DNA of 34,098 nucleotides from Novosphingobium sp. 17-62-19 (lineage in GTDB: Bacteria > Pseudomonadota > Alphaproteobacteria > Sphingomonadales > Sphingomonadaceae): contig NZ_NCII01000024.1 in assembly GCF_002256775.1 (NCBI RefSeq), positions 1-34,098 of the forward strand, read 5' to 3'. Below the pieces are notes generated by a model that worked only from the letters and a program-made list of their open reading frames with translations, was not told the origin of the DNA and searched no databases. The translations under genes were made by a program, and so were the position numbers. The stretch's first letter is position 1; every line of letters starts with the position of its first letter. Positions 11,466 through 32,910 of this stretch are shown here, in pieces.

Positions 11466-11504
11466 TGCACCTAAATGCACCAAAGCGCACCTAGAGTGCA
11501 CCTA
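11466..11504. repeat. Four short direct repeats spaced by about one helical turn
   Basis: The octamer (T/C)GCACC(T/A)A occurs at 11466, 11476, 11486 and 11497, at intervals of 10, 10 and 11 bases. The last copies run into the 3' end and TAG stop of the HAD gene (11491-11493), so part of the array is coding. The phase near 10.5 bp places every copy on the same face of the helix. It may be a small tandem duplication or a protein-binding array. Confidence 0.5.
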
Positions 11505-12333
11505 ACAGCGGTTCGAGGTCGTTCAGCAGCACCGTGGGGCGGTCTTTTTCGGGCAAGGCAACATCGCTGCCCATGATGCCCGTCGCAAGGCCGACCGACA
11601 TCGCGCCAACCGCATTTGCCATGCGCATTTCCAACGCCGGATCGTCTCCAACAACCACCATGTCCTTCGCGGCGGAGCGGGGCAGGCCGAGCACTTTCAT
11701 CGCGGTGTCGAACGCGACTTTGGACGGCTTGCCCAGAATTCGCGGGCGCTTGCGCGTCATCGCCGTGAGCATGGCGTTGATCGGAAAGCTCGCCCCGATG
11801 GCGCGGCCATTTTCGGTGGCGAAAAACGGAACGTGGCTGGCCGTGACAAGTCGCGCGCCGTTCCACAACGAGTGGCATCCGGCCTCTAACGCATTGAAAT
11901 CAAACTCGCGGAACCAGCCGGTGTAGACGGCGTCCACCCCGTCCGCCTCTTCCGATGGGCTGACCACATCCAGCCCGGCATCGATCAAGGGCGCAGCGCA
12001 GCCTGCGTTGCCGAGCACCCGCACCTTGCGTGCGCCCACGCTATCGAGCCAGACCGCAGCGGATGTCGAGGGCGTGAGCATCTGCCCGTCTTCCACCGGA
12101 AAACCGGCGTTGCGCAATGAGTTGGCATAGACGGCGGGGGGCTTGGCCGTGCCATTGGTAAAGACGACATAGGGCGTTCCGCTGGCTTTCAGAGCTTCCA
12201 GCACGGCGATGGCGTGAGGCAGGGCGCGGTGGCCGCCGCTTTTGGAATCGCCCAGCGCGATGGTGCCGTCCATATCGAAGATGAAGCCTGCCGCGCCGCG
12301 CAGGCGGGCGGTCAATTCTGCGTTCAGTTTCAA
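11491..12333 (-). CDS. HAD-superfamily class IIA hydrolase (NagD/phosphoglycolate phosphatase-like)
   Basis: A 280-aa putative phosphatase. HAD motif I FDMDGT has the nucleophile D20 and acid D22, motif II is VVFTNGT (Asn60), the GKPSKVAFD lysine is K202, and motif IV VVVGDDPALEM has D230 and D231. The large type IIA cap lies between motifs II and III. All catalytic residues are intact. It is the last gene of the carboxylase operon. Its TTG start (12333) overlaps the TGA stop of the carboxyltransferase gene as TTGA, and no ATG or GTG is available upstream in frame. The context suggests it removes a phosphate from an intermediate or side product of the carboxylation pathway. The substrate is unknown. 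Confidence 0.85.
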   Translation of the reverse strand: MKLNAELTARLRGAAGFIFDMDGTIALGDSKSGGHRALPHAIAVLEALKASGTPYVVFTNGTAKPPAVYANSLRNAGFPVEDGQMLTPSTSAAVWLDSVGARKVRVLGNAGCAAPLIDAGLDVVSPSEEADGVDAVYTGWFREFDFNALEAGCHSLWNGARLVTASHVPFFATENGRAIGASFPINAMLTAMTRKRPRILGKPSKVAFDTAMKVLGLPRSAAKDMVVVGDDPALEMRMANAVGAMSVGLATGIMGSDVALPEKDRPTVLLNDLEPLLGAL

Positions 12334-13802
12334 AGCGATGCTCCGGCATGGAGGGCAAGACGGAAGCCGTCGCGCTCGATCACCAGATCGCGCGCATGGG
12401 GCCGTGCCGCCAGTTGGCGCAGCAACGACAGGATCGGTGCGGCGTGGGGCGAGTAGGTGGCGCGCGAACGTCCGGCGACGAGCATGGCATCGACCTGTTC
12501 GCCCGGCATCACCGCGCGCAGCAGGAATTCCTCGTCGGGCAGGTTGGTGCCGAACTGGCGGCGCAGATCGCCAAGTGCCGGAAACATCGGCTCATTTTCC
12601 AGCTCGCGCGAACGCGGGCGGTCCATGATCGTGGCCAGCACTGTTGGATCGACCGGCGATGTGGGCTTGCCGAACTTGCCCATGCAATAGCGGATCACCT
12701 GATCCGAAACTTGCGCATAGCGGCGGTCCCCGATCACGTTGAACAGCGCCTGCGTCATGACCATCTGCGGGAACGGCGTGACCATGATGGGGAAGCCGAG
12801 GTCGGCGCGGACCTGCCCGGTTTCGGCGATCACCGCGTCCATCCGGTCTGACAGGCCGAGTTCTTCCAACTGGCGCGCGATGGTCGTCATGACGCCACCT
12901 GCGATCTGGTGGCGCAGGAAGCTGGCGTCAAAATTCTGCGGGGTGCCGGGGGGCAGGCCTTCCGCCAGCGCGACCTGTTGCCAGTAGGTGGTGAGGCGTT
13001 TCAGCGCGGGTTTGTCTATGCCGACTTCGAAGCCTGCTTCTTCAAGGTTGGCGACCATACGGTTGGCTTCGGGCAAGGATGAGCCGTCGCCGCCGGGGCC
13101 AACGCCGACGTGGATAGCCGAAATGCCCAGCTTTGCGGCTTCCAGACTGGTCATCATGCCGAGGCCGACGGTGGTGTGGGCGTGGATTTCGAGCGGACGG
13201 TTGCCGATGGCAGCCTTTACCGCAGGCACCAGCGTGCGGGCGCGATCTACGGAAAGCAGGCCTGCCGGGTCCTTGATGTAGAACAGGTCGATATGCGGGC
13301 TCTGCCCCACGGCGCGGGCGAAATCGGCGTAGAATTCGTCGGTGTGGATTTCCGAGAGGGTGAAGGTGAGCGCCGCCATGACTTCGGCACTGCCTTCTTC
13401 CTTCACCAGCTTTGCCGCCTCGATCACGGCGGGTACTTCGTGCATCGGGTCGAGCAGGACGAAGCGGCCCACGCCGTTCACCTGCAGCGCGCGATAGACG
13501 AGGCGCATGAATTCAGGGTCGGCCTGTTGCCATGCGATGAAGCGCAGGCCGGTGGTTATGAACTGCAGCGGCGTGGTGGGCATGGCGGCGGCCATGCGGC
13601 GCAGACGCTCCCACGGATTGTTGCGGAAATAGCGGACGGCGACGGCCATGTGGCTGGACGAGGTGAAGTCTATCGCGCGGAAACCGCAGGCTTCGGTCAG
13701 TGCGGCGGCTTGCAGCATGTGCGCGGTGTTGAGGCCGGTGGCGCCCCACAGGCTCTGGTTGCCATCGCGCATGGTGACATCGACGAGACGGATCTGCGTC
13801 AT
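12330..13802 (-). CDS. Biotin-dependent carboxyltransferase subunit (OadA/PycB/HMGL-like TIM barrel)
   Basis: A 490-aa carboxyltransferase that would move CO2 from carboxybiotin to an organic acceptor. It begins IRLVDVTMRDGNQSL, equivalent to the D-T-x-x-R-D-x-x-Q-S motif of pyruvate carboxylase/OadA. FYIKDPAGLL carries the family lysine (K177), and EIHAHTTVGLG gives the metal-binding H207 and H209. Residues 234-243 (GVGPGGDGSS) replace the usual OadA loop, so the acceptor may not be pyruvate or oxaloacetate. There is no fused biotinyl domain. The separate BCCP is upstream. The frame is open to 14063, but the ATG at 13802 overlaps the biotin carboxylase stop (ATGA) and starts the barrel. Paralogues with other acceptors exist, so the substrate is open. 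Confidence 0.85.
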   Translation of the reverse strand: MTQIRLVDVTMRDGNQSLWGATGLNTAHMLQAAALTEACGFRAIDFTSSSHMAVAVRYFRNNPWERLRRMAAAMPTTPLQFITTGLRFIAWQQADPEFMRLVYRALQVNGVGRFVLLDPMHEVPAVIEAAKLVKEEGSAEVMAALTFTLSEIHTDEFYADFARAVGQSPHIDLFYIKDPAGLLSVDRARTLVPAVKAAIGNRPLEIHAHTTVGLGMMTSLEAAKLGISAIHVGVGPGGDGSSLPEANRMVANLEEAGFEVGIDKPALKRLTTYWQQVALAEGLPPGTPQNFDASFLRHQIAGGVMTTIARQLEELGLSDRMDAVIAETGQVRADLGFPIMVTPFPQMVMTQALFNVIGDRRYAQVSDQVIRYCMGKFGKPTSPVDPTVLATIMDRPRSRELENEPMFPALGDLRRQFGTNLPDEEFLLRAVMPGEQVDAMLVAGRSRATYSPHAAPILSLLRQLAARPHARDLVIERDGFRLALHAGASL

Positions 13803-15133
13803 TGGGCAAGTCCTGCAAGGAAGCCAGTATCGACGCCGCCAGCGATGAAGCGCGGGTCTGCGACGATGCGGCGATGGAGCGGTGCGGTGGTGGGCAGGCC
13901 TTCGATGTGCAGCGCTTCCAGCGCTTTGCCCAACTGTTCGACCGCCTGTTCGCGCGTGGGAGCGTGGACGATAAGCTTGCCCATCAGCGAATCGTAGAAG
14001 GGCGGGACCTCTCCTCCGATGCCGATGTGGGTATCGACGCGCACGCCGGTGCCTGCGGGCCATGCGGCGCGGGAAGCGCGGCCGGGGGAGGGGCGGAAAT
14101 CGGCGTCCGGGTCTTCGGCGTTGATGCGCACTTCGATGGCGTGGCCCGTGGGGCGGATCATGGCCTGGGTTAGCGTCAGGTCCTTGCCTATCGCGACGAG
14201 CAGTTGTTGTTCAACCAGATCGACGCCGGTGATTGCTTCGGTGACCGGGTGCTCCACCTGAATGCGGGCGTTCAGTTCTAGGAAATAGAACGAGAAATCG
14301 GTGGCATCGACGAGGAATTCCGCCGTTCCTGCGCCTCGATAGCCCAGATGGCGGGCGAGGCGGACAGCGGCTTGTTCGATGCCTTCGCGTGCGGCCAAAG
14401 GCATTGCGGGGGCAGGCGCTTCCTCAACCAGTTTCTGGAAGCGGCGCTGAATCGAGCAATCGCGCGTGCCGAGGTGGATGGCGTTGGCGCCATCGCCGAG
14501 CAACTGCACTTCGACATGGCGGCCGAGCGCCACGAAGCGTTCGACATAGACCGCCGCGTTGCCGAATGCGGCTTGTGCTTCGGCCTGCGCCATGTCGAGC
14601 GCGGTATCGAGGTCTTCGGCGCGGTCCACGCGGCGCATCCCTTTGCCGCCCCCGCCGGAGACGGCCTTGAGCAGCAAGGGGTAGCCGGTTTGTGCCGCGC
14701 GAGTGTGGACATCGGCGCGGGTGGCGGCTTCTCCGCCGGGGAGGACGGGCAGGCCTGCTTCGACTGCAAGGGCACGAGCAGCGAGTTTGTCGCCCATGCC
14801 TTCGAGTGTGGCGATGTCAGGGCCGACGAAGCGGATGCCTTTTGCCTGCATGGCGCGGGCGAAAGTGGCGTTTTCGGACAGGAATCCGTAACCAGGGTGG
14901 ACGGCGTCGCAGCCCGAACGGACGGCGGCGGCGACCACGCTTTCAACCGAGAGATAGCTTTGTGAGGACGGGCCGGGGCCGACGATTTCTACCTGATCGG
15001 CAAGCTGTGCGGGCAGCGATGTGGCATCTGCAGCCGAGGCACCGAGGACGGTTTCGATCCCCATGGCGCGCGCGGTGCGGATCACGCGGAGCGCAATTTC
15101 CCCGCGATTGGCGATGAACAGTTTGCGGATCAT
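13799..15133 (-). CDS. Biotin carboxylase subunit (AccC-like)
   Basis: A 444-aa ATP-grasp enzyme that carboxylates the biotin of BCCP using ATP and bicarbonate. It has IANRGEIALRVIRTA at the start, the HPGYGFLSEN motif (79-88), GDKLAAR with K116, the flexible glycine loop SGGGGKGMRR (159-168), and the catalytic ELNARIQVEHPVTE (286-299). The length is that of free-standing AccC. Because it is encoded with its own BCCP and an OadA-type carboxyltransferase, I read it as part of a dedicated catabolic carboxylase and not as the acetyl-CoA carboxylase subunit. It starts at ATG 15133, 4 bases after the BCCP stop, and ends overlapping the next gene. Confidence 0.92.
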   Translation of the reverse strand: MIRKLFIANRGEIALRVIRTARAMGIETVLGASAADATSLPAQLADQVEIVGPGPSSQSYLSVESVVAAAVRSGCDAVHPGYGFLSENATFARAMQAKGIRFVGPDIATLEGMGDKLAARALAVEAGLPVLPGGEAATRADVHTRAAQTGYPLLLKAVSGGGGKGMRRVDRAEDLDTALDMAQAEAQAAFGNAAVYVERFVALGRHVEVQLLGDGANAIHLGTRDCSIQRRFQKLVEEAPAPAMPLAAREGIEQAAVRLARHLGYRGAGTAEFLVDATDFSFYFLELNARIQVEHPVTEAITGVDLVEQQLLVAIGKDLTLTQAMIRPTGHAIEVRINAEDPDADFRPSPGRASRAAWPAGTGVRVDTHIGIGGEVPPFYDSLMGKLIVHAPTREQAVEQLGKALEALHIEGLPTTAPLHRRIVADPRFIAGGVDTGFLAGLAQ

Positions 15134-15137
15134 GAGG

Positions 15138-15596
15138 TTAGCTGCCTTCCGGCGTCAGCTTGATGAGCGCATCACCTTTGGCAACGAGTGTGCCATCGGT
15201 AACGAGCACTTCGGCAATCGTGCCGCTGCGCCCGGCGTGGACCGGATTCATCAGCTTCATCGTCTCGACAATGCCGATCACGGTTTCCGGGCCGACTTCA
15301 TCACCGGGCTGGACAAATGGCGGAGCGCCGGGCTGGGGCGCGTGGTAGAACGTGCCGGGCAGCGGTGAGCAGATCGCCGAAGGATCGGCCTCGGCGACAG
15401 TGGCTGCTGCGGCCACGTCACCCGATGCGCCTGCCCATTGCCATTCCTGCGTCAAGCCGCTGTCTGCGCCAACACCTTTGGCCACGCGCAGGCGGAAGCG
15501 GCGGGTAGACAGATCAAGCTCGCTGTAGCCTGATTTGTCGAGGATTGCTGCGATTTCAGCGATATCTTCGTGAGTAAGAGGCAGATCATCGGTCAT
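15138..15596 (-). CDS. Biotin carboxyl carrier protein (AccB-like)
   Basis: A 152-aa swinging-arm protein. The C-terminal biotinyl domain (about 75-150) carries the biotinylation motif ETMKLMN with K114 as the biotin acceptor, preceded by the SPLPGTFYHAPQPGAPPF stretch that resembles the AccB thumb region. An Ala-rich linker (about 57-70) separates a short N-terminal domain. It shuttles CO2 between the biotin carboxylase and the carboxyltransferase encoded next. The ATG at 15596 lies 6 bases after the UPF0261 stop, and the gene ends 4 bases before the biotin carboxylase start. No strong Shine-Dalgarno is visible, consistent with coupling to upstream translation. Confidence 0.92.
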   Translation of the reverse strand: MTDDLPLTHEDIAEIAAILDKSGYSELDLSTRRFRLRVAKGVGADSGLTQEWQWAGASGDVAAAATVAEADPSAICSPLPGTFYHAPQPGAPPFVQPGDEVGPETVIGIVETMKLMNPVHAGRSGTIAEVLVTDGTLVAKGDALIKLTPEGS

Positions 15597-15602
15597 GGGG
15601 GA

Positions 15603-16820
15603 TCAGTTCTTTGCGGCCAGCATTTCCCGTGCCGCGGCAGTCACCGCGTCGGAAAAGGCCTCGTCGTTGAAGTGGGCGTCGATGGTGGTGACGGGAACAT
15701 TGTCCGGCATGACCGAAGCCAGATATTCGGCGAAGGGGCCGGGGACCGATAGGTCCTGCAGGTGCCCTTGCGCACTGTCATGGCTGGAAAACCCGCCGAG
15801 TGGGGTGAACACGCGGACCGGGCCTTTCGCCTCGCGCACGTTGGAGGCGAGGTGATCTGCGAGGCGCTTCAGGTCTTCGACTTTTGTGCGCACAGCGGTG
15901 AGCTGCGGGTTGTGCTCGTGATAGCGGCGACCGGGGAACTGGACTTCGGAAATGGCCAGCGGTCCTCCGATGATGAAATCGGCATTGCCGGGTGCGATGA
16001 TCGTGGGGATGCCTTTGGCAAGGCCAGCCTTGCCGCGATCGGGGCCGGAATCGGCAAGCCCGCCGAACAGGTGATCGAGGATTTCAGTCTGCGACAGGTC
16101 GAGCACCAGCGCCACATCCTTGTCCTGAGCCAGTGCATCGAGCGTGGGGCCGCCTGCGCCCGAGGAGTGGAACACCATGACTTCGCAGCCATCGGATTCC
16201 AGCGACTGGCGGATGCGCTTCACGCTGGCCTCGGTGGTGCCGAGCGTGGTGATCAGGACCAGCGGTTTGGCGGGGCCTTTGTCTCGTTCATAGCCCTTGG
16301 CCATGCCCGCAACGGCATTGGCAGCGTTGCGGAAAACGTCGCGGCTGATGGTGTTGATGCCCGAAATGTCGGTCACCGCGTTCATCATCGCGATGTCTTT
16401 CACGCCCATGTAAGGCTTGGTGAAGCCGGAGGCCATTGTCGAGACGATCAGCTTGGGCAGGCCATAAGGGAAGCTTTGCATCAAGGCACCGGCGAGCGCA
16501 GAGCCCATCGAACCGCCGACCGCGAGGATGCCGGAGACTGGGGCCTTGGCGTCCCAGGCGTGGGCGGCGGCGATGGCGCCACGGATCATCGCGTCCTGGC
16601 ATTTGCCTTCGTGGCCGAGCGCGCGGACCTGTTCGATGGTCATGCCAGCAGCTTGCGCAACCGTTTCGGGCGCGATCTCTGCGCCGCCGATAGTGCGGCG
16701 CACGCTGGGATCGAGGTGGACGACATCCACTCCTGCCGCTTCGAGCACGGCGCGGGTGAAGTGGGCTTCTTCTTCCTTGGTATCCTGCGTGCAGATGAAC
16801 AGGACGCTTGGGTTCGTCAT
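15603..16820 (-). CDS. UPF0261 / Tm-1-like ATP-binding domain protein
   Basis: A 405-aa protein of the UPF0261 family, whose founding relatives include the N-terminal domain of the tomato Tm-1 resistance protein, an ATP-binding fold. Typical features are the start SVLFICTQDTKEEEAHF, the VDVVHLDPSVRR segment, a glycine-rich ILAVGGSMGSALA and the VMVFHSSGAGGPTLD-like stretch (here EVMVFHSSGAGGPT). The reaction of bacterial members is not established. They often sit beside a TIM-barrel PEP-hydrolase-like partner, which is missing here. Instead this is the first gene of a biotin-carboxylase operon, hinting at a role in substrate activation. The ATG at 16820 has AGAGGA about 9 bases upstream. Upstream in-frame codons to 16904 look non-coding. 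Confidence 0.86.
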   Translation of the reverse strand: MTNPSVLFICTQDTKEEEAHFTRAVLEAAGVDVVHLDPSVRRTIGGAEIAPETVAQAAGMTIEQVRALGHEGKCQDAMIRGAIAAAHAWDAKAPVSGILAVGGSMGSALAGALMQSFPYGLPKLIVSTMASGFTKPYMGVKDIAMMNAVTDISGINTISRDVFRNAANAVAGMAKGYERDKGPAKPLVLITTLGTTEASVKRIRQSLESDGCEVMVFHSSGAGGPTLDALAQDKDVALVLDLSQTEILDHLFGGLADSGPDRGKAGLAKGIPTIIAPGNADFIIGGPLAISEVQFPGRRYHEHNPQLTAVRTKVEDLKRLADHLASNVREAKGPVRVFTPLGGFSSHDSAQGHLQDLSVPGPFAEYLASVMPDNVPVTTIDAHFNDEAFSDAVTAAAREMLAAKN

Positions 16821-16938: not shown

Positions 16939-17738
16939 ATGCTGGAACGGCGGGTGAAAACCGTCCGCGCGCTGGAGCGCGGGCTGGATGTGCTGATCGA
17001 AGTGCAGACTAGAAAGGCAGCCAGCCTGCACGAGTTGCATCAGGCAACCGGGCTGCCCAAGGCGACATTGCTGCGGATGCTGGTGACGCTGGGGCAGAAG
17101 GGGCTGGTGTGGCAGAGGCTGGCCGATGGGGCCTATTTGCCGCATGTGGACCGGGTGGAGCGGGCGTTGGTTACGTCTACGGCCCATATGCCGAGATCGC
17201 CTCACCGCATATGAAGGCGCTGTCCACGCGGGTGGCATGGCCTTCGGTGCTGGCTGCGCCGCGACTCGATCATATGGAGATTCTCGAGACGAACAGTCCG
17301 CTGTTCAGGCTGGATTCCGCGATTCTGGGGCCGGTAGGCGTCAAGCTGTCCTATATCCATACGGCAACGGGGCGTGCCTATCTTGCGGCCTGCGGCGATG
17401 CGGAACGCGATTCGATCATCGATCGTTTGCGCCCGGCGAACCCGCAGGAGGGGAGCGAGGCTGAACTGCGGCAGATGCTGCAGACAGTTCGGCAGCGCGG
17501 TTACGCCACGCGTGATCCGCTGCTGCCATGGCCGGACCGGTCAAAGCAGATGATCCTGCGCGATGGTCGTCGGTCAATGGCGGTGCCGATCATGGTAAGC
17601 GGATCACCTATTGCCACGATCAATGTGACATGGCCGGGGCGGCGTGGAGCGGATGAAACGGTTGTCCAGCGGCATCTGGAAGCATTGAAAGCGACCGCGC
17701 GGGCTATTGGATCTGCATTGGAACAGAAGCCCAATTAA
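16939..17738 (+). pseudogene. IclR-family transcriptional regulator, split by a frameshift
   Basis: The N-terminal part (ATG 16939, MLERRVKTVRALERGLDVL) encodes an IclR winged helix with the recognition segment LHELHQATGLPKATLLRMLVTLG. This frame stops at TGA 17212-17214 after 91 aa. The ligand-binding part (AEIASPHMKAL, WPSVLAAPRLDHMEI, LGPVGVKLSYIHTATGRAYLA and so on to 17738) continues in a frame shifted by -1. The switch must lie between about 17150 and 17195. The joined length is 800 bases, one short of an intact gene of 266 residues, so a single-base deletion (real or a sequencing error) explains it. I see no convincing slippery heptamer for programmed shifting. An intact version would control the carboxylase operon and possibly the genes from 17824 on. 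Confidence 0.85.
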
Positions 17739-17755: not shown

Positions 17756-17823
17756 CTGTTTGTCCCGCTGATTATCTCTTGGCGCTGAATCGGTGATGCT
17801 CCCGAAACAGGGAGAGAATGATA

Positions 17824-18837
17824 ATGCGCCAGTGGCTGATTTCCGCAGGGTCTACTTCGCTTGACGATCTGAAGCTGGTTGAGGCCGCCGAGCCACAAGT
17901 TGGCCTGGGCGAAGTGGCGGTGCGGGTGCGGGCCTGTTCGCTGAACTTCCGGGACCAGATCATTCCGCTTGGTTTTTACATGGGCGGCGTGGTGCAGCAG
18001 GATACTGTGCCGCTGTCTGACGGAGCCGGTGAGGTTGTGGCGGTGGGCGAGGGCGTTACTTCGGTTGCCGTGGGTGACCGGGTGGCAGGCACCTTCTTTC
18101 AGGACTGGATGGACGGGCCGCCCAATCCCGCGATGGGCGTGGCGTTGGGTGCGCCGCCTGCGCCGGGGATGCTGCAGGACGTGGTCGTGCTGCCGGAGCG
18201 CGGCGTCGTGAAGCTGGCTGAGACGCTGGACTTTGTGGAGGCCGCGTGTCTGCCTTGCGCCGGGGTGACGGCGTGGAACGCGCTGATGGAGGGGCCTCGG
18301 CCAGTGAAGGCGGGTGATACCGTACTGGTGCTGGGCACCGGGGGCGTTTCGTTGCTGGCCTTGCAGATTGCCAAGGCGGCGGGCGCGACGGTGATTGCGA
18401 CGTCTTCGTCTGATGAGAAGCTGGAGCGCGTGAAGGCGCTGGGGGCGGATCATGTGATCAATTATCGCACGACGCCCGAATGGGGTGCGGAGGCTGCGCG
18501 GATTGCCGGTGGGGGTGTGGATAAGGTTGTGGAAGTTGGTGGGGCGGGGACGCTCAAGCAGTCCATCGCTGCCGTAGGCTTTGCCGGTGAGATTGCGCTG
18601 ATCGGCGTGTTGACGCGCGAGGGCGATACCAGCCCGCATGGACTGATGTTCAAAGGTGCGTCGATCCGGGGGATATTCGTGGGGTCAAAGGGCATGGCCC
18701 AAAGGCTCAACGCCTTCATCGATGCGCACGGGATCAAACCGGTGGTGGACCGCAGCTTTGCGATGGAGGGGTTGAAGGACGCCTTTGCCTATCAATCGTC
18801 CGCGGGGCTTTTCGGGAAAGTTGCGATCACGCTTTAG
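17824..18837 (+). CDS. Quinone-reductase-like NAD(P)-dependent alcohol dehydrogenase (MDR family, zinc-free type)
   Basis: A 337-aa medium-chain dehydrogenase/reductase. It has an N-terminal GroES-like domain (SLNFRDQIIPLGFY, about 41-54) and a Rossmann domain with the nucleotide-binding VLVLGTGGVSLLALQIAKAAGA. The structural-zinc cysteine cluster is absent, and FRDQ and the LPCAGVTAWNAL segment match the YhdH/QOR-like zinc-independent branch. The reaction is probably an NAD(P)H-linked reduction or oxidation of an enone, quinone or alcohol. The ATG at 17818 would sit one base from the GGAGAG at 17811-17816, whereas ATG 17824 has 7-base spacing, so I chose the latter. It is the first gene of the catabolic series, with the IclR-like site upstream. 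Confidence 0.86.
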   Translation: MRQWLISAGSTSLDDLKLVEAAEPQVGLGEVAVRVRACSLNFRDQIIPLGFYMGGVVQQDTVPLSDGAGEVVAVGEGVTSVAVGDRVAGTFFQDWMDGPPNPAMGVALGAPPAPGMLQDVVVLPERGVVKLAETLDFVEAACLPCAGVTAWNALMEGPRPVKAGDTVLVLGTGGVSLLALQIAKAAGATVIATSSSDEKLERVKALGADHVINYRTTPEWGAEAARIAGGGVDKVVEVGGAGTLKQSIAAVGFAGEIALIGVLTREGDTSPHGLMFKGASIRGIFVGSKGMAQRLNAFIDAHGIKPVVDRSFAMEGLKDAFAYQSSAGLFGKVAITL

Positions 18838-18893
18838 GCAGGTCGGTTTGGCGTCGCCGCACGATAGAGGCGGGGCGCGAGGAGAGGATGGGA

Positions 18894-19439
18894 ATGGGGC
18901 AATTGCTTGGCTTTGGCCAGCCCTTTGGGGGCGTGATGCAGACGGCTTTCGTGGTGGAGGACGTGCGCGCTTCAATCGCACATTTTCAGCGCGATTGTGC
19001 GGCGGGTCCGTTCTTTCTGCTCGACCACTTTCTGGGGCCGGACCAGTTCTATCGTGGGGAGACTTCAACCGCCGATGTGACCATTGCGATGGGCTTTGTC
19101 GGGCATATGCAGATCGAACTGATCCAGCCGCTGGACGGCAATGCTTCAGTCTATCGCGAAACCATCGAGCAGCGCGGATACGGGTTCCACCACTTTGGAA
19201 TTGCTTGCGAAGACGTGGATGCAGCCCTGCCGGACTATCTGGCGCGGGGCTATTCGCTGGCGTTCAAGGCGGCGGTGCCGACCGGGGGGAGCGTGGCCTA
19301 TCTTGAGGGTGGCGATGCTGCGGCTCCCGGCTTTCTGGAGCTGATACCCGCCACGCCGGGGATGGATGCGCATTTTACGGCGATGTGGCGCGCTTCGTTG
19401 GACTGGGACGGTTCGGACCCGGTGCGGCCGTTTATCTGA
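18894..19439 (+). CDS. VOC-family (glyoxalase/dioxygenase superfamily) protein
   Basis: A 181-aa protein of the vicinal oxygen chelate fold. It has MQTAFVVEDVRASIAHF at the first beta-alpha unit and YGFHHFGIACEDVDAALPDYLARGY at the second, both classic for glyoxalase_4-like members. Possible metal ligands are the histidines of GFHHFG and the glutamates of QIELIQP and FLELIP. VOC members include epimerases, lyases, dioxygenases and small binding proteins, so the reaction is open. In this setting an isomerase or ring-cleavage accessory role is possible. Two ATGs compete, and ATG 18894 has GGAGAGG 6 bases upstream, better than 18888. It follows the dehydrogenase gene by 56 bases. Confidence 0.78.
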   Translation: MGQLLGFGQPFGGVMQTAFVVEDVRASIAHFQRDCAAGPFFLLDHFLGPDQFYRGETSTADVTIAMGFVGHMQIELIQPLDGNASVYRETIEQRGYGFHHFGIACEDVDAALPDYLARGYSLAFKAAVPTGGSVAYLEGGDAAAPGFLELIPATPGMDAHFTAMWRASLDWDGSDPVRPFI

Positions 19440-19442
19440 TCC

Positions 19443-19482
19443 ATTGCGCGCTGGTCCCGGTTTGGGTGCGCGCCAATGCAAG
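19443..19482. promoter_or_regulatory. Candidate AraC-type operator (two 12-bp direct repeats, 22-bp phase) upstream of the MFS gene
   Basis: TTGCGCGCTGGT at 19444-19455 is repeated as GTGCGCGCCAAT at 19466-19477, starts exactly 22 bp apart. The 40-base block matches 29 of 40 positions with 21799-21838 upstream of the TonB receptor, including GTGCAAG-like ends. Direct repeats two helical turns apart fit an AraC-family dimer or two-headed monomer. It lies 75 bases before the MFS start. The same bases also form an imperfect hairpin (ATTGCGCGC with GCGCGCCAAT). Confidence 0.55.
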
Positions 19483-19557
19483 AGAGGAGAGCAAAGGCGA
19501 CCTAGAACGAAGGCAATGTCGGCAATGAACCGGCGAAGAGGATTTTGGGAGAAAGCG

Positions 19558-20808
19558 ATGTTGGGCAAGGCGGAAAACAAGGCCGAAAAGGCGCGCGGCG
19601 GGGGGTACCAGATATGGGTAACTGCGCTGCTGAGCCTGAATTTCGGCATCCTGTTTTTTGACCGCAACGCGCTCAACTTCCTGATGCCGTTCGTTCAGCC
19701 GGATCTGCAACTGAGCAACACGCAGGTGGGCATGTTCAGCTCCGCGCTTTCGCTCACGTGGGCACTTTCCGGGCTGGCAGTGGGGCGGATTTCAGACAAG
19801 CTGGGATCGCGCAAGCCGGTGATCGTGGTGGCCACCGTGGCGTTCTGCCTTTGCTCGTTCATATCCGGTGCGGCGTCCTCGTTCCTGATGCTGTTGGGCG
19901 CGCGCCTGTTGATGGGTGCGGCAGAGGGCGGGGTGATGCCGGTCAGCCATTCGATGATCGTGGCCGAAGTGGCGCCTGAGCGGCGCGGGCTGGCGATGGG
20001 GGTGGCGCAGAATCTGGGATCGAACCTGCTGGGATCGGGCCTTGCACCGCTGCTGCTGGTGCCGGTGGCGGTGGCGGTCGGTTGGCGCACGGGGTTCTAC
20101 CTTGCGGCGCTGCCCGGCCTGATAACGGCTGCGTTGATCTGGTTCACCCTGCGCGAACCGCCTGCTGAAGTGCATGACGACGCCGCGCCGACAGTTACGC
20201 TCCGTGAGGCGTTTCGGCATCGCAACGTGATCCTGTGCGCGATGATCTCGATCTTGCTCGTCTCCTACCTTGTGGTTTGCTGGGCGTTTATGCCGCTGTT
20301 CCTCACCAAGGCGCGCGGGTTTGACCCTGAAACGATGGGCTGGTTGATGGCGACGCTGGGGATTTCGGCGGGGCTGGGGAGCTTTGTGGTTCCGGCGATT
20401 TCGGACGCCATCGGACGACGCCCAGTGATGATCTTCTTTTCGTTTCTTGGCGTGATCCTGCCTTTGGCGGGGCTGTACTATCAGGGTTCGACGCTGACGC
20501 TGGCGGCGATTTTCTTCTTCGGGTGGGGGCTGAACGGCCTGTTCCCGATGTTCATGGCGACGATCCCGGCAGAGTCCGTCGATCCGCGCCTGACCGCGAC
20601 GCTGACCGGCGTGGTCATGGGGACGGGCGAAGTGCTGGGTGGCGTGCTCGCGCCATTCATGGCGGGCGCGCTGGCCGACATCTACGGACTGGCTGCGCCG
20701 CTGTGGCTGATGCTGGTCTGCGCGGTGCTGGCAGGAATTTGCACATTGGGACTGATTGAATCCGCACCGCGCGTGGTTGCGCGGCGCGCCGCTCCGGCAT
20801 TTGCCTGA
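19558..20808 (+). CDS. MFS transporter, anion:cation symporter-like (aromatic/organic acid uptake)
   Basis: A 416-aa inner-membrane transporter with twelve predicted helices. It has the MFS loop 2-3 signature GRISDKLGSRKPVI and, in the second half, the equivalent AISDAIGRRPVMI. It also has the GARLLMGAAEGGVMPVSHSMI segment typical of ACS-family members that import organic acids, including aromatic carboxylates. The substrate is inferred only from context (catabolic enzymes, TonB receptor). Several upstream in-frame ATGs exist (19516, 19525), but ATG 19558 has GGGAGAAAG immediately upstream and starts near the first helix. The araC-type gene follows by 25 bases. Confidence 0.87.
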   Translation: MLGKAENKAEKARGGGYQIWVTALLSLNFGILFFDRNALNFLMPFVQPDLQLSNTQVGMFSSALSLTWALSGLAVGRISDKLGSRKPVIVVATVAFCLCSFISGAASSFLMLLGARLLMGAAEGGVMPVSHSMIVAEVAPERRGLAMGVAQNLGSNLLGSGLAPLLLVPVAVAVGWRTGFYLAALPGLITAALIWFTLREPPAEVHDDAAPTVTLREAFRHRNVILCAMISILLVSYLVVCWAFMPLFLTKARGFDPETMGWLMATLGISAGLGSFVVPAISDAIGRRPVMIFFSFLGVILPLAGLYYQGSTLTLAAIFFFGWGLNGLFPMFMATIPAESVDPRLTATLTGVVMGTGEVLGGVLAPFMAGALADIYGLAAPLWLMLVCAVLAGICTLGLIESAPRVVARRAAPAFA

Positions 20809-20833
20809 GCTAAACGTCGACGGGAGAAGAACG

Positions 20834-21772
20834 ATGACTGCGCTTCTCAAGTTTCATACAGGCGATGTCGCCCCGGCCGACCGGGCGCGATACTGGAATG
20901 AAGTTGCCGACCGCGTTTTTACCGGAACCTTCGTCAATGTGCCGGGGGAAGATTTTGCCGGGCGGATGCTGGCCTGGCGGGTGGGTCAGCTTGATATGAT
21001 CCGCACGGATTCTACGCATTCAGGGGTGGGGCGTACGCCTTTGCCGCAGAACGAGGAGCGATTGATCCTTCATCTGCAATGCCGGGGCACCAGCGAACAT
21101 GCGCAGAAGCGTGCGGAATGTGCGCTGCAACCCGGTGACTTTGTGCTGGCAAGTCCGCATGAGCCGTATTCCATCAAGCTTAGCGGCCATGAAATGCTGG
21201 TGGTGGAGTTTCCGCGTGCCCCACTGGTCGAGCGCTTTCCCGATGTGGACGATGCGCTGATGCAACGCATGTGCGGATCAACGCCGGGGGGGCGAGTGTT
21301 CCACGATTTCCTGCTTTCGCTGTGGCAGCATGGCGAGCGGGCGGGCGAAGATCCTGAATGGGAAACCGGCGTCAACGCGGTGTTCTATGACCTTGCGGCG
21401 ATGGCCATGCGTGGAGCGCAGCGTCCGCAGGCGGTGATCGGCGAGGATGATCTGCGAGCACGGGTCACGACGATGGTGGCCGCGCATCTGGAAGACCCAT
21501 CGTTGCGCACTGCTTCGATTGCCGATGCCTGCCGCATTTCCATGCGCACGGTGCAGAACGTTTTTGCGGCAATGGGCACGACGCCGACAGCTTATGTTCT
21601 GGAACAGCGGCTGAAGCGCGCGGCTGACCGCTTGGTTGCACGGCCTGACGCCAGCATTACCGAAATCGCGTTTGAGCTGGGCTTCAACGACAGCGCCTAT
21701 TTCACGCGGTGCTTCCGCCAACAGTTCGGTGCAGCGCCGCGCGATTGGAGGCTGGGGCGCCGGACTGTGTAG
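20834..21772 (+). CDS. AraC-family transcriptional regulator
   Basis: A 312-aa activator-type regulator. The N-terminal ligand/dimer domain (to about 200) resembles the AraC-binding-like domain of FeaR/NahR-type regulators (LQCRGTSEHAQ..., LQPGDFVLASPHEPYSI). The C-terminal double helix-turn-helix begins near residue 212 (LRARVTTMVAAHLEDPSLRT) and ends with the conserved IAFELGFNDSAYFTRCFRQQFGAAPRDWR. ATG 20834 is preceded by GGGAGAAG. It lies between the ACS transporter and a TonB receptor, and matching 22-bp-phased direct repeats are found upstream of both, so those are its likely targets. The inducer is unknown and probably the imported substrate or a metabolite. Confidence 0.92.
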   Translation: MTALLKFHTGDVAPADRARYWNEVADRVFTGTFVNVPGEDFAGRMLAWRVGQLDMIRTDSTHSGVGRTPLPQNEERLILHLQCRGTSEHAQKRAECALQPGDFVLASPHEPYSIKLSGHEMLVVEFPRAPLVERFPDVDDALMQRMCGSTPGGRVFHDFLLSLWQHGERAGEDPEWETGVNAVFYDLAAMAMRGAQRPQAVIGEDDLRARVTTMVAAHLEDPSLRTASIADACRISMRTVQNVFAAMGTTPTAYVLEQRLKRAADRLVARPDASITEIAFELGFNDSAYFTRCFRQQFGAAPRDWRLGRRTV

Positions 21773-21798
21773 TGAAAACAGAGATCTGCCGCGCAGCA

Positions 21799-21838
21799 TT
21801 TGCGCGTCAGTCCTGATCAGCTTGCGCGCCAGTGCAAG
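21799..21838. promoter_or_regulatory. Candidate AraC-type operator upstream of the TonB receptor
   Basis: TTGCGCGTCAGT at 21800-21811 and TTGCGCGCCAGT at 21822-21833 match at 11 of 12 bases and start 22 bp apart. A third, weaker copy (core CGTCAG) follows in the same phase at 21844-21855. The block resembles 19443-19482. It sits 94 bases before the receptor start and just downstream of the araC-type gene. A TTGACA at 21889-21894 could be the -35 element, but no good -10 is visible. Confidence 0.6.
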
Positions 21839-21932
21839 CCACGATTTCCGTCAGCACGTATCACGCTGGCGAGATCTTGGGAGCCGCCTTGACAGGCAGT
21901 TCCGCCACCAAGACCAACAGGGAGAGAAAAGC

Positions 21933-24437
21933 ATGAGAATGGCATCGATTTCCATTGCCGCAATGGCAGCGGCCATCGCCGTACCGGCATTCGCGCAGGA
22001 CAACGCGCAGGCCGAGGAAAGCACTGGCGGCATTGCCCAGATCGTGGTGACCGCACAGAAGCGCGCTGAGAACGTGCAGGACGTGCCAATTGCTATTTCG
22101 GCCTTCAGCGCCGATGCATTGCAAGAGCGCGCCGTCGGCAGCGTGGCCTCGCTTTCCAACATTTCGCCGAACGTGACGCTTGACGCGGGCACACCGTTCT
22201 CGGGCTCGTCCGCCGTGCTTTCGGCCTATATTCGCGGCATTGGCGCGAACGATTTTGCCTTCAACATCGATCCGGGCGTGGGTGTGTATCTGGACGGCGT
22301 TTATCTTGCGCGGTCGGTTGGCGCGAACCAGGATCTGCCTGACGTTGAACGCATCGAAGTGCTCAAAGGGCCGCAGGGCACGCTGTTTGGTCGCAATACC
22401 ATTGGCGGTGCCATTTCCATCGTGACGCACGATCCGGGTGATGAGTTCCGCTTCAAGGGCGATGTAACCACCGGCAGGTTCGGTCTGTTGCAGACCCGCG
22501 GCACAGTTGACCTGCCGCTGACGGACGGCCTTGCTGCATCGGTCAGTTTCTCGACCAAGAACCGCGACGGCTATGTGAAGCGGGTGGCGTTCCCCGGTGC
22601 TGAAAACTTCGATTCAACGCCGATCACAAACTACAAGGCCGCAGGTTACAACAACATCGGCTATGGCACGGAGGGTGGCGACAACAGCTGGAACCTGCGC
22701 GGCAAGCTGCGCTATGACAACAAGACCAACCTGCGCATCACGCTGTCGGGAGACTACAGCAATATCGACCAGTCGCAGTTGGCCAACACGCTGATCTCCA
22801 CCACATCGGCCGTTTTTGCAGGAACCTACAACTGTGCAATCGAAGGTATCGTGGCTGACTCCTGCGGGGGCGGCCCTCCTTCGTTTGCCTACATCGGTGG
22901 CATTGGTGGTCTGAACAGCATTTTCGACAATCCCACCGTATTTGGGGTGAACGTGGATGCCGATCCGAACAACAACCGGTTGCCCTATGATAACCGGTTT
23001 GTTTCGGGCGATGTCGACGTATCCTATGCCAACGGTAACAACTATTCGAAGATGAAGTCCTATGGCGGTTCGGGCACGATCGAGTTCGATCTGTCCGACA
23101 CGGTGATGATCAAGTCGATCACCGCCTATCGCGAGCTGCACTGGAATGCGGGCATGGACCTCGACAGTTCGCCGCTCAACTTCCTGCATACCAGCTTCAC
23201 CATGAACCAGTACCAGTTCAGCCAGGAAGTTCAGCTGAACGGTTCGGCGATGGACAAGACGCTGAACTATGTGCTGGGCGCATACTTCTTCAAGGAAGCG
23301 GGCGACCTTCATGACTATGTGACCTTTGCCGAAGGTCTGTTGCAGGTTGACGGTCCGAACGACCTTTCGACCAAGAACTACGCGTTCTTCGGTCAGATCG
23401 ACTATCGCCCCACGGAACAGTTCGGCATCACCATCGGTGGCCGTTACACCAAGGAAAACAAGACTTTCGAAGGCTTCCAGTCGGACGCCAACGGGCTGAC
23501 CTACAAGATCCTCAATCAGGTTGGTGTGCCGGAGTGTGCTTCGATCAACCCGATTTCGGATGCCTGCCGCATTGCCGCGGGCTTCCCCAATCAGGGCGAA
23601 CCGCTGCGGTATTACATTGCAGGAACCCAGCGCAAATCGTTCAGCGACTTTTCGCCCAAGATCGGTCTGCAATATCACCCGACCGACGACGTGATGCTCT
23701 ATGGCAGCTGGTCGAAGGGGTACAAGACCGGTGGCTGGACCACGCGCCTGTCCAACCCGCTGCCTACTGCGCCTGACTTCGATGAAGAAAAGGCGACTAC
23801 GTGGGAAGTGGGCGTAAAGTCCATGTTCCTCGACAATCGCCTGCAAATCAACGCTGCGGCGTTCCATACCGACTATAAGGGCATCCAGCTGAACTTCCAG
23901 CAGGGCGTCTCGCCGACCATTCAGAACGCAGGCGATGCACGGATCAAGGGCTTCGAAGTTGAGGTTGTTGCAGCCCCCACGGACGGCTTCCTGATCAACG
24001 CGTCGGTGGGCTATACCGATGCAACCTATACGGCGGTGCTGGCAGGGGCGCAGGTTGCAGCGAACCCGTTCCAGGCGGGCGTGTTCCCCGGCGCCGATCT
24101 GCCCAAGACGCCCAAGTGGAAGTTCAACGTCAGCCCGCGCTATGAACTGTCGGTGGGTGGTGATGCCAAGGTTGTGATCCTTGGCGACTGGACCCACACC
24201 ACGTCGCTTTGGAACGATACCGAGCGCGCGTTCCTGTTGCAGCGTGGACCGACCGACATCGTCAACGGCAACATCAGCTACAAGTCAGGCAACCATTGGG
24301 ATCTGACCGTGGGTGTCACCAACATCACCGACGAACGTTATCTGGTGACCGGCCAGGCGCAAATCACCGGTGGCCAGTTCTACGGCACCTACAGCCGCCC
24401 GCGTGAATGGTTTGCGCGGCTTGGCGTGGAATTCTGA
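21933..24437 (+). CDS. TonB-dependent outer-membrane receptor
   Basis: An 834-aa outer-membrane transporter. A signal peptide (about 1-22, MRMASISIAAMAAAIAVPAFA) is followed by the segment GGIAQIVVTAQKRAENVQDVPIAIS, typical of sphingomonad receptors with a TonB box near IVVTAQKR. A plug domain contains IRGIGANDFAFNIDPGVGVYLDG and VERIEVLKGPQGTLFGRNTIGG. The barrel ends in a terminal aromatic residue (RLGVEF). The family imports large or scarce substrates across the outer membrane using TonB energy, and in sphingomonads many act on aromatic compounds. ATG 21933 has GGGAGAG upstream. The frame is open further back but overlaps the araC gene, so that extension was rejected. It is followed by the cupin genes after a stem-loop. 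Confidence 0.94.
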   Translation: MRMASISIAAMAAAIAVPAFAQDNAQAEESTGGIAQIVVTAQKRAENVQDVPIAISAFSADALQERAVGSVASLSNISPNVTLDAGTPFSGSSAVLSAYIRGIGANDFAFNIDPGVGVYLDGVYLARSVGANQDLPDVERIEVLKGPQGTLFGRNTIGGAISIVTHDPGDEFRFKGDVTTGRFGLLQTRGTVDLPLTDGLAASVSFSTKNRDGYVKRVAFPGAENFDSTPITNYKAAGYNNIGYGTEGGDNSWNLRGKLRYDNKTNLRITLSGDYSNIDQSQLANTLISTTSAVFAGTYNCAIEGIVADSCGGGPPSFAYIGGIGGLNSIFDNPTVFGVNVDADPNNNRLPYDNRFVSGDVDVSYANGNNYSKMKSYGGSGTIEFDLSDTVMIKSITAYRELHWNAGMDLDSSPLNFLHTSFTMNQYQFSQEVQLNGSAMDKTLNYVLGAYFFKEAGDLHDYVTFAEGLLQVDGPNDLSTKNYAFFGQIDYRPTEQFGITIGGRYTKENKTFEGFQSDANGLTYKILNQVGVPECASINPISDACRIAAGFPNQGEPLRYYIAGTQRKSFSDFSPKIGLQYHPTDDVMLYGSWSKGYKTGGWTTRLSNPLPTAPDFDEEKATTWEVGVKSMFLDNRLQINAAAFHTDYKGIQLNFQQGVSPTIQNAGDARIKGFEVEVVAAPTDGFLINASVGYTDATYTAVLAGAQVAANPFQAGVFPGADLPKTPKWKFNVSPRYELSVGGDAKVVILGDWTHTTSLWNDTERAFLLQRGPTDIVNGNISYKSGNHWDLTVGVTNITDERYLVTGQAQITGGQFYGTYSRPREWFARLGVEF

Positions 24438-24447
24438 TCGAACACAG

Positions 24448-24483
24448 CGCGGGCGGGCTTGGACCGCTTCAGGCTCGCCCGCG
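24448..24483. repeat. GC-rich stem-loop between the TonB receptor and the cupin genes
   Basis: CGCGGGCG at 24448-24455 pairs with CGCCCGCG at 24476-24483 around a 20-base loop. There is no T-run after it. It could lower read-through from the receptor into the cupin genes or protect the 3' end of the receptor mRNA. Confidence 0.4.
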
Positions 24484-24506
24484 TTCCAACATTTCGGAGA
24501 GAGACA

Positions 24507-25040
24507 ATGCCTGAGGCAGCGCACGCGGAATTCTGGAGGGACATCAAGCCGGTAGACAAGGTGTTCCGCGAGGGCAGCTTGCCGGAAGTCTACCTTCCCA
24601 AGATTGCCGAGGGTGACGAACGGTACTGGGTGCCGATTTCGGAGACGGTGTTTTCGAAGCCGGTCTGGATCAGCCCAACAAAGAACATGTGGGCCGATGT
24701 CCTGATGAGCAAGACAGCCGGGCTGGTGAACCGCCATTACCATCCGCACCCGATCTGGGCCTACACCATCAGTGGCAAGTGGGCCTATCTCGAGCATGAA
24801 TGGACCGCGACCGCTGGCGACTTTGTTTATGAGACGCCGGGCGAGAGCCACACGCTGGTCTGCTATGAACACGAAGACCCGATGAAAGTGTTCTTCGTCG
24901 TTTCCGGCCCGCTGATGTGGCTGGATGAAGAGGGCAATACTGTCGACCACTATGATGTGTTCGATTACATCAAGGCCGCGCGTGAGCATTACGACAAGGT
25001 CGGCATCGGTGCTGACTATGTTGATACGCTAATCCGTTGA
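24507..25040 (+). CDS. Cupin, 2,4'-dihydroxyacetophenone dioxygenase-like (copy 1)
   Basis: A 177-aa single-domain cupin. The metal site is HxH at H77/H79 (VNRHYHPHP) with a third histidine H115 in the ETPGESHTL motif. This spacing agrees with the three-histidine iron site of 2,4'-dihydroxyacetophenone dioxygenase (DAD). DAD cleaves the C-C bond between carbonyl and hydroxymethyl carbons of hydroxyphenacyl alcohols. The cupin-1 glutamate is missing, as in the DAD group. It is the most divergent of the three tandem copies. ATG 24507 has GGAGAGAG upstream. A DAD-type role is inferred, as ChrR-like cupins of other function share this fold. Confidence 0.8.
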   Translation: MPEAAHAEFWRDIKPVDKVFREGSLPEVYLPKIAEGDERYWVPISETVFSKPVWISPTKNMWADVLMSKTAGLVNRHYHPHPIWAYTISGKWAYLEHEWTATAGDFVYETPGESHTLVCYEHEDPMKVFFVVSGPLMWLDEEGNTVDHYDVFDYIKAAREHYDKVGIGADYVDTLIR

Positions 25041-25053
25041 GAGGATTTCCCAA

Positions 25054-25590
25054 ATGACCGTGATGACCGCACCGCCATCGGACAAGGCCGAGATTGTCGA
25101 TGTGCCCTTTGCGCACAAGGAACTGGTGGCTCGGCTCAGCCCTGGCGGACGCTATATCGATGCGCAGACCGATGTGGACAGCCCGTGGGTGCCGTTTGGT
25201 GAAAATGCGGCGATCAAGCATCTGGCGTTCGATGTACGGCAGAACCTCTATTCCAACATCCTGTGGGTGAAGGGGCCGGGCGTGATCGGCACGCATTTTC
25301 ATCGCGGCACGATCACGATGGTCTGCCTTGAAGGCAGCGTCCGCTATCTGGAATATGATTGGGTGGCGACGCCGGGTGGATTGATCCTTGAGACGCCGGG
25401 CGAGAGCCACACGCTGGTCACCGATCATCCGCAGGGCTGCAAACTGTTCGGTTGGATGCAGGGACCGATCGAATTCTACGATTCCAACGCGGTGCTGGTC
25501 GATACCACCGACGTATGGTGGTTCATCAACCACTACGAGACGCACTGCCGCGAGAACGGCATCGCCATCAACCCCAAGCTCTATCTCTGA
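25054..25590 (+). CDS. Cupin, 2,4'-dihydroxyacetophenone dioxygenase-like (copy 2)
   Basis: A 178-aa paralogue of the preceding gene, 13 bases downstream. The metal ligands are retained: H81 and H83 in VIGTHFHRG and H119 in ETPGESHTL. It shares long stretches with copy 3 (SPWVPFG-NAAI-HLAFDVR, KGPGVIGTH, RYLEYDWV, HYE-CRENGIAINP), so copies 2 and 3 arose from a later duplication than copy 1. GAGAGGA precedes the ATG. All three could be isoenzymes, subunits of a mixed oligomer, or enzymes for related substrates. Confidence 0.8.
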   Translation: MTVMTAPPSDKAEIVDVPFAHKELVARLSPGGRYIDAQTDVDSPWVPFGENAAIKHLAFDVRQNLYSNILWVKGPGVIGTHFHRGTITMVCLEGSVRYLEYDWVATPGGLILETPGESHTLVTDHPQGCKLFGWMQGPIEFYDSNAVLVDTTDVWWFINHYETHCRENGIAINPKLYL

Positions 25591-25597
25591 GGCACAC

Positions 25598-26131: not shown

Positions 26132-26141
26132 AGGCGCGGGC

Positions 26142-27224: not shown

Positions 27225-27240
27225 CGAATAGAGGATGCAA

Positions 27241-30661: not shown

Positions 30662-30723
30662 CCCCGTCAACCTGACTGCGCGATTGGCGCCGCCCAACTA
30701 CCTGCTGTTTCGGAAAGTCTGCA

Positions 30724-31857: not shown

Positions 31858-31860
31858 AGA

Positions 31861-32880: not shown

Positions 32881-32910
32881 CGAACCTGATTTTCCTGCGC
32901 AGCGATATAC

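Follow-up and report, generated by a model that had tools for sequence, protein, structure and literature searches.

The operon and its predicted products

The window analysed here, the whole of a 34,098-nucleotide stretch of Novosphingobium sp. 17-62-19 (contig 40 of a 3.8 Mb draft genome in 149 contigs, 94.9% complete), carries a five-gene operon in which a UPF0261 (Tm-1-like) protein leads a biotin-dependent carboxylase and a HAD phosphatase. All five genes are intact open reading frames (ORFs) on the minus strand that run head to tail from 16820 to 11491 in the order UPF0261, biotin carboxyl carrier protein (BCCP), biotin carboxylase (BC), carboxyltransferase (CT) and HAD. UPF0261 and BCCP are separated by 6 bases and BCCP and BC by 4; BC and CT overlap by ATGA (13799-13802) and CT and HAD by TTGA (12330-12333). 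These coordinates confirm the layout described in an earlier interpretation of this DNA, made without database searches (the sequence-only reading). We consider it very likely that the operon's products catalyse the three opening steps in the breakdown of hydroxyphenylethanones, lignin-type aromatic ketones of the acetovanillone and 4-hydroxyacetophenone kind.

15603..16820, minus strand: UPF0261 (Tm-1-like), predicted single-component aryl-ketone kinase, Saro_1862 ortholog; 405 amino acids (aa); Pfam, 88% identity to PDB 9MPY
15138..15596, minus strand: BCCP; 152 aa; Pfam, ETMK at residue 111
13799..15133, minus strand: BC; 444 aa; Pfam, motif
12330..13802, minus strand: CT, Hpe/Acv-type group; 490 aa; Pfam, CT trees
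11491..12333, minus strand: HAD phosphatase, predicted dephosphorylation after carboxylation (the HpeD role); 280 aa, TTG start; Pfam, motifs

Pfam models cover the full length of the UPF0261 protein (N domain, E 3.7e-56; C domain, E 1.4e-63) and match Biotin_lipoyl in BCCP (E 9.7e-16), all three BC domains in BC, PYC_OADA (E 5.7e-23) and HMGL-like (E 1.7e-10) in CT, and Hydrolase_6 in the HAD protein (E 7.8e-21, over the cut-off). The motifs ETMK in BCCP, GGGGKGMR in BC, RDGNQS and IKDP in CT, and DMDGT, TNG, GKP and GDD in the HAD protein (the DxDGT, Lys and GDD of the NagD type, HAD-IIA) are, we presume, the catalytic ones. The HAD protein scored 74.5 bits against the NCBIfam HAD-IIA model TIGR01460, under its cut-off of 100.15. 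The separate BCCP, BC and CT genes sit between the phosphatase and the predicted kinase, whose role is assigned by orthology.

In the proposed pathway, UPF0261 would phosphorylate the ring hydroxyl using ATP, BC would charge the biotin on BCCP with CO2, CT would pass this carboxyl on to the phosphorylated ketone, at its methyl carbon, to give a phosphoaryl beta-keto acid, and the HAD phosphatase would take the phosphate off; enzymes from genes outside the operon would then split the free beta-keto acid, leaving an aromatic acid. For this strain we infer all steps, including the last step and the substrate range, from orthology. In Rhodococcus GD02 the steps of HpeHI, HpeCBA and HpeD were measured, and HpeCBA gave no detectable conversion of unphosphorylated ketones (PMC9618137; this and the other papers are cited from excerpts of their text).

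A phmmer search with the window UPF0261 protein matched PDB 9MPY at 792 bits, and the same entry was the best Foldseek match (88% identical) of an AlphaFold model built with a 26-row alignment (mean pLDDT 87.1); a single-sequence model was unusably poor (mean pLDDT 39.7). The 9MPY record, released 2025-09-24, is Saro_1862, a UPF0261 domain protein of Novosphingobium aromaticivorans with acetovanillone bound. A single-component kinase, MarK, starts acetovanillone catabolism in that species (PMC13101465), and Saro_1862 is almost certainly MarK, a link made through organism, substrate and date. Saro_1863 is described as an IclR and Saro_1867 as an AraC regulator (PMC12352068), a numbering that fits the window order of UPF0261 followed by IclR, ADH1, VOC, MFS and AraC genes.

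Residues common to carboxylase-linked UPF0261 proteins, other UPF0261 proteins and a Tm-1 fragment include G102, G103, D142, N156, H218, D241, E246, R262, D281, N304, N385 and D386; further residues, among them H70, D228, N279 and H347, are characteristic of the carboxylase-linked clade (conserved meaning at least 95% of 22 carboxylase-linked and at least 90% of 23 other UPF0261 proteins, with L194, a very long branch, excluded). To our knowledge the UPF0261 family has no settled general reaction. Its members usually lie near a phosphoenolpyruvate (PEP)-hydrolase-like partner, as the sequence-only reading had stated: in 385 same-class genomes such a gene was found within 6 kb of 37 of 60 UPF0261 genes, own included, and a CT from the 12 best CT matches adjoined one of the 60, the window's own. 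These counts derive from 63 rows, less two second gene pieces and one row below the cut-off, and nine further weak rows were dropped. The PEP-hydrolase-linked context is another, unsolved setting of UPF0261. Plasmids of Thermomicrobium roseum (L195) and Haloterrigena turkmenica (L197) also carry UPF0261 near a 'phosphoenolpyruvate hydrolase family protein', one with a PEP/pyruvate-binding protein nearby and the other with a cupin in between.

The carboxyltransferase and the exchange of kinases

The window CT shares 27-29% identity with two annotated OadA proteins (L171, L174) and 47-50% with three other CTs (L063, L064, L065), two of which adjoin HpeHI-type kinase genes and one of which is followed by an acyl-CoA ligase. 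The description 'OadA-type' in the sequence-only reading therefore holds at the superfamily level and not beyond it. A CT tree, proposed with that reading as a check, placed the operon CTs with those of HpeHI-type operons: in a quick tree rooted on OadA, the window CT lies outside the annotated OadA (two rows) and PycB (one row), and the operon CTs stand apart from PycB and from most of a group of CTs at 31-36% identity. HpeB, Acv, XccC and CfiA-type reference sequences were absent from the trees, and the label Hpe/Acv-type is taken from the CTs of HpeHI-type operons. So defined, the window CT is by sequence a member of the group from Hpe/Acv-type operons, not an OadA.

We searched 197 genomes, own included, for the CT. 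Full or nearly full matches at 67-100% occurred in 32 of them and partial ones in two (G020, 83%; G086, 95%); below these came three matches at 48-50% (two in G051, one in G034) and 17 at 31-36%, the remainder being long pyruvate carboxylases at less than 30% or weak partial matches. Neighbourhoods of up to 20 kb were taken around 51 CT matches. With the window excluded, the order UPF0261-BCCP-BC-CT was present in 29 of the 31 loci with a CT of at least 67% identity, the other two ending at a contig edge, and HAD followed CT in 30 of the 31, the exception (L057) ending at a contig edge; the five-gene arrangement is therefore not due to chance. Together with Pfam and the motifs, this conserved order bears out the claim that UPF0261 leads a complete, free-standing BC, BCCP and CT with HAD last. 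BC is split over three ORFs in L039, and UPF0261 has an in-frame stop in L041 (G094). UPF0261 was found at 64% or more in 35 of the 197 genomes and at 32-36% in eight more (43 in all), and every genome with a CT of at least 67% has it (34/34, own and the two partial matches included).

In a scan of named genomes, where the nearest CT relatives are Novosphingobium, we analysed the best 80 of 452 confirmed CT relatives. UPF0261 was the kinase in 59 of these 80 loci and an HpeHI-type kinase (more than 40% identity to a gene of L065 or L063) in 15; neither was seen in 6, five of which end at a contig edge, and no locus had both. HpeH- and HpeI-like genes take the place of UPF0261 in L065; L063 has an HpeI gene, where its contig ends; and the contig of L064 ends before BCCP, with an acyl-CoA ligase-like gene after the locus. 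The HpeH-like protein of L065 carries a PEP-utilizers domain at its C-terminus, the HpeI-like protein of L063 is PPDK_N, and HpeHI is described with such domains (PMC12167813). Plasmids give a direct comparison. That of Pseudomonas putida YC-AE1 has the order acetoacetate-CoA ligase, UPF0261, BCCP, BC, CT, HAD, amidohydrolase, and that of Rhizobium leguminosarum BT01 PEP-utilizing enzyme, PEP/pyruvate-binding protein, BCCP, BC, CT, HAD, acetoacetate-CoA ligase, amidohydrolase; judged by gene content and order, the former is the latter with the kinase swapped and the ligase moved to the front. Because UPF0261 or HpeHI occupies the same slot, never both, and given the CT tree, we conclude that UPF0261 replaces HpeHI.

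The own genome had no match to HpeH, and full-length HpeH was found in one of the 197 genomes (G034, the source of the query, not among the 43 with UPF0261), with the C-terminal part alone matching elsewhere. On this search, whose control is weak, we rejected the possibility that the own genome hides an HpeHI kinase. The sequence-only reading had named two outcomes that would count against it, a CT firmly inside the pyruvate or 2-oxoglutarate carboxylases, with anaplerotic phenotypes, or operons that lack UPF0261 in every relative. Neither was found: the CT groups elsewhere, and UPF0261 stands in the same operon in most relatives in both the 31 loci and the best 80 of 452.

The quick CT tree has 109 rows (111 candidates minus L147 and L154, too short) and omits L167, which has the gene set of L164, and L032-L062, largely genomes of named loci. 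With all labels it needs six changes for UPF0261 and seven for HpeHI, unseen-kinase rows being counted as other, and it contains two very long, doubtful branches (L082, L168), probably owing to poor N-terminal trimming. We also used a careful tree of 45 of the 109 rows, without L082, L168 and the unseen-kinase rows. It separates the operon CTs from four rows of the 31-36% group with support of 100/100, the UPF0261 and HpeHI labels need three changes, and a single origin of UPF0261 appears in 0 of 200 bootstrap trees. One clade of all 24 UPF0261 rows was rejected (p-AU 0.001); one clade of the UPF0261 rows without P. putida was not (p 0.294), in a test picked after the tree had been seen. With that last value, a reversal to HpeHI in L120, L122 and L124 is not certain. 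By these trees at least two kinase exchanges are supported and a third is possible. A 46-row UPF0261 tree has all 22 carboxylase-linked proteins, the window's included, on one side of a 100/100 branch, which indicates that one UPF0261 lineage made the move.

L143, L144 and L145 are second UPF0261-BCCP-BC-CT-HAD loci in the record sets of L133, L131 and L132, on the same or another contig; their UPF0261 is 58% identical to the window's, that of the first loci 65%, giving two operon versions per genome, perhaps for two ketones. HpeHI-type genes, BCCP, CT and HAD occur without a BC match in about 20 kb in L065 (8623-10661), L169 and L170, where BC may come from elsewhere. On plasmid pRB98 of Rhodococcus oxybenzonivorans (L173, 2243-9771), a 'pyruvate, phosphate dikinase' is followed by BCCP, BC, CT (35%), an OB-fold protein, a thiolase and a tyrosine phosphatase, a further kinase-carboxylase-phosphatase layout that perhaps serves another pathway with a different kinase and phosphatase. 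An HpeHI-type carboxylase cluster on a contig titled Klebsiella pneumoniae (L153, a metagenome-assembled genome) groups with gammaproteobacterial metagenome-assembled genomes, and its label is probably wrong.

Bisphenol A degraders, neighbouring genes and rival readings

Plasmids of bisphenol A degraders carry the operon. UPF0261 and CT are 65% and 68% identical to the window's in S. bisphenolicum AO1 (pBAR1, L164) and S. yanoikuyae (YC-JY1, L167, and also NZ_CP060125), and 53-54% identical on plasmid 1 of P. putida YC-AE1 (L165). The pBAR1 order is carotenoid oxygenase family (PF03055), hypothetical, aldehyde dehydrogenase, NTF2-like, 4HBT-type thioesterase, BKACE (PF05853), UPF0261, BCCP, BC, CT, HAD, with pobA about 9 kb before UPF0261; the PF03055 enzyme, from what we know of its family, presumably cleaves the stilbene intermediate. 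BKACE (beta-keto acid cleavage) and thioesterase genes adjoin the operon in both sphingomonads, AO1 and YC-JY1; in YC-JY1, about 8 kb past HAD and with transposase genes in between, there are also genes for a P450 and a 2Fe-2S protein. L131-L134 and L164 have CTs that are identical over the part compared; the record titles name Aurantiacibacter, Sphingobium (two species), Sphingomonas and plasmid pBAR1, one of the records being Sphingobium bisphenolivorans YL23. Identity across three genera makes recent horizontal transfer likely.

Bisphenol A is degraded to 4-hydroxybenzaldehyde and 4-hydroxyacetophenone, and YC-JY1 is stated to grow on each as sole carbon source (data not shown; PMC7278973); YC-AE1 is stated to degrade both fully within 24 h (data not shown; PMC9733184). 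In a bisphenol-degrading community, hapA and hapB of Sphingomonas, genes of a route from 4-hydroxyacetophenone to hydroquinone, were judged inactive (PMC6366072), which favours another route. Against this stand the drawing of the hydroquinone route for YC-AE1, with an up-regulated 4-hydroxyacetophenone hydrolase (PMC9733184), and the slow use of 4-hydroxyacetophenone by the Sphingomonas isolate of the community (PMC6366072). In the excerpts of these three papers the fate of 4-hydroxyacetophenone is a Baeyer-Villiger route or is left open (PMC7278973, PMC9733184, PMC6366072), and our literature search, most subscription journals lying outside it, found no paper linking the operon to its use by bisphenol A degraders. 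From gene content and plasmid location, the operon is a likely route for 4-hydroxyacetophenone from bisphenol A in these strains.

Candidates for the last step were sought in the own genome. BKACE had no match, and HpeE-like ligases were rejected as distant. A candidate by sequence is an amidohydrolase gene on contig 35 (G000:C35:40709-41560): its product shares 59% identity with the amidohydrolase of the P. putida operon, and ahead of it lie genes for an AMP-binding ligase, a PQQ dehydrogenase and an aldehyde dehydrogenase.

Regulatory, transport and oxidoreductase genes lie beyond UPF0261, on the opposite strand:

16939..17738, plus strand: IclR-type regulator, divergent, in two reading frames (helix-turn-helix 16939-17214, effector 17109-17738)
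17818..18837, plus strand: ADH1, medium-chain dehydrogenase/reductase; homologs also near some HpeHI-type operons
18888..19439, plus strand: VOC (Glyoxalase_4) protein
19366..20808, plus strand: MFS transporter; longest ORF, true start probably later
20756..21772, plus strand: AraC-type regulator; longest ORF
21636..24437, plus strand: TonB-dependent receptor; longest ORF
24459..26131, plus strand: cupin cluster; Pfam Cupin_7 in 24459-25040 and 25388-26131 (longest ORFs), the middle ORF 25054-25590 resembling the last by BLAST
26097..27224, plus strand: Rieske oxygenase with VanA_C domain
27235..28080, plus strand: SDR dehydrogenase
28092..29099, plus strand: ADH2, zinc-type alcohol dehydrogenase

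Some of the cupin, Rieske, SDR and ADH genes are retained with both UPF0261- and HpeHI-type operons. An MFS transporter, a GH68 levansucrase/invertase and a LacI-type regulator at 29237-33021 probably form a sucrose-type locus beyond the aromatic cluster. All 43 IclR ORFs of named relatives have at least 264 aa; the window's copy, split over two frames, reflects either damage to the regulator gene or a mistake in the assembly.

This out-of-frame regulator is one of several points that weigh against the operon as an aryl-ketone pathway. A last-step gene is absent from the operon; BKACE found nothing to match in the own genome, whose best HpeE-like ligase is a distant one at 26%. Saro_1862 is equated with MarK indirectly. 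G066 has a partial UPF0261 without CT, and in L154 the 3.9 kb before BC match none of the queries. The name HpeHI-type was given by domain content and by resemblance to L065 rather than to GD02 sequences, and the HpeH negative is weakly controlled, its one full-length match being the source of the query and the own genome being incomplete.

The carboxylase might instead be an anaplerotic pyruvate or 2-oxoglutarate carboxylase with UPF0261 and HAD as accessories. Generic family models call BC and CT parts of acetyl-CoA or pyruvate carboxylase or of OadA, all those listed scoring under their cut-offs, and among CTs of solved structure the closest in sequence belongs to a pyruvate carboxylase, as its beta subunit. 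The low identity to OadA, the grouping with CTs of HpeHI-type operons and the position of OadA and PycB outside that group in the quick tree, which held no CfiA-type reference, led us to reject this reading as extremely improbable; the long pyruvate carboxylases of relatives are, moreover, separate genes less than 30% identical to the CT. It is also very improbable that UPF0261 binds ketone and ATP for another purpose, such as sensing, CoA ligation or scaffolding, with the phosphate coming from an unrelated kinase. Such a role would suit a family without a settled reaction that lies far more often near a PEP-hydrolase-like gene than in such an operon (37/60 versus 1/60) and whose plant member, Tm-1, is described as an inhibitor of viral replication (PMC5028733). 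It sits poorly with the exchange of UPF0261 for HpeHI in a slot that never holds both, with the ketone bound in 9MPY, with MarK being described as a single-component kinase, and with the missing HpeH match. The same lines of evidence, the structure, MarK, the slot exchange and the CT grouping, support the order of events put forward by the sequence-only reading: phosphorylation of an aryl ketone by UPF0261, then carboxylation and dephosphorylation.

Within the aryl-ketone pathway, the native substrate could be another ketone, such as one made from a bigger piece of lignin, with its processing assigned to the linked cupin, Rieske, SDR and dehydrogenase genes. These travel with the operon: L065, with its HpeHI kinase, has homologs of ADH2, SDR, cupin, MFS and VOC at 51-73% identity, and L113 and L141 have such genes too. 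The TonB receptor and MFS transporter suggest uptake of a specific compound. With acetovanillone bound in 9MPY, and the core present without the extra genes in the stretches examined of the bisphenol A degraders' plasmids, we regard this variant as possible but unlikely.

Implications and comparison with known systems

Much of this pathway is largely known, the kinase and the route having been published in 2025 for the sister species N. aromaticivorans; what may be new are the counts and trees for kinase exchange and the link to bisphenol A. We put forward, tentatively, a wider view in which UPF0261 proteins would make up a third class of small-molecule kinase, unrelated in structure to the others. 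One of their lineages would have acted as a mobile cassette, taking the place of HpeHI in aryl-ketone carboxylase operons on at least two occasions and giving bisphenol A degraders (the AO1, YC-JY1 and YC-AE1 plasmids) a 4-hydroxyacetophenone route; by extension, PEP-hydrolase-linked UPF0261 proteins and the plant Tm-1 domain might phosphorylate small molecules. An operon annotated in records as 'Tm-1-like ATP-binding domain-containing protein', 'acetyl-CoA carboxylase' and 'biotin carboxyl carrier protein' gains a likely function, and two unrelated kinases can fill one place in a pathway. The question of how bisphenol A degraders use 4-hydroxyacetophenone receives a testable answer, and what the UPF0261 domain of plant Tm-1 does biochemically can likewise be tested.

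The closest known system is that of MarK/Saro_1862 in N. aromaticivorans DSM12444, which is alike in its UPF0261 protein, 88% identical, in the acetovanillone ligand of 9MPY and in the IclR and AraC gene numbers that fit the window order; it differs in strain, and its IclR counterpart in the window is out of frame. The Hpe pathway of Rhodococcus rhodochrous GD02 (HpeHI, HpeCBA, HpeD, HpeEF), compared by description, shares a kinase, the BCCP, CT and BC proteins, a phosphatase and the predicted chemistry. Its set comprises kinase pair, BCCP, CT, BC, phosphatase, ligase and hydrolase (PMC9618137), so that CT precedes BC and the ligase and hydrolase lie in the operon, and its two-component HpeHI is unrelated to UPF0261. 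The R. leguminosarum BT01 set resembles that of GD02 with BC and CT in reverse order. We take the GD02 hydrolase to be an amidohydrolase-family protein. The Acv pathway of Sphingobium lignivorans SYK-6 (AcvABCDEF), also compared by description, likewise has a kinase, a three-component carboxylase and a phosphatase, with the last steps elsewhere in the genome (PMC13101465), but its kinase has two components; the window operon has UPF0261 in place of the two-component HpeHI/AcvAB kinase.

Beyond these pathways, OadA and PycB share with the window CT the superfamily and biotin-dependent chemistry but occupy another part of the tree, and after the LQ motif the window CT reads TTGLRFIA where the solved pyruvate carboxylase has LRGQNLLG. 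Tomato Tm-1 (3WRW and others), for which we know of no kinase reaction, has the fold of the window UPF0261 protein at 25-28% identity (Foldseek), with G102, G103, D142, N156, H218, D241, E246, N385 and D386 in common; it differs in its antiviral function in the plant and in the second domain to which it is fused.

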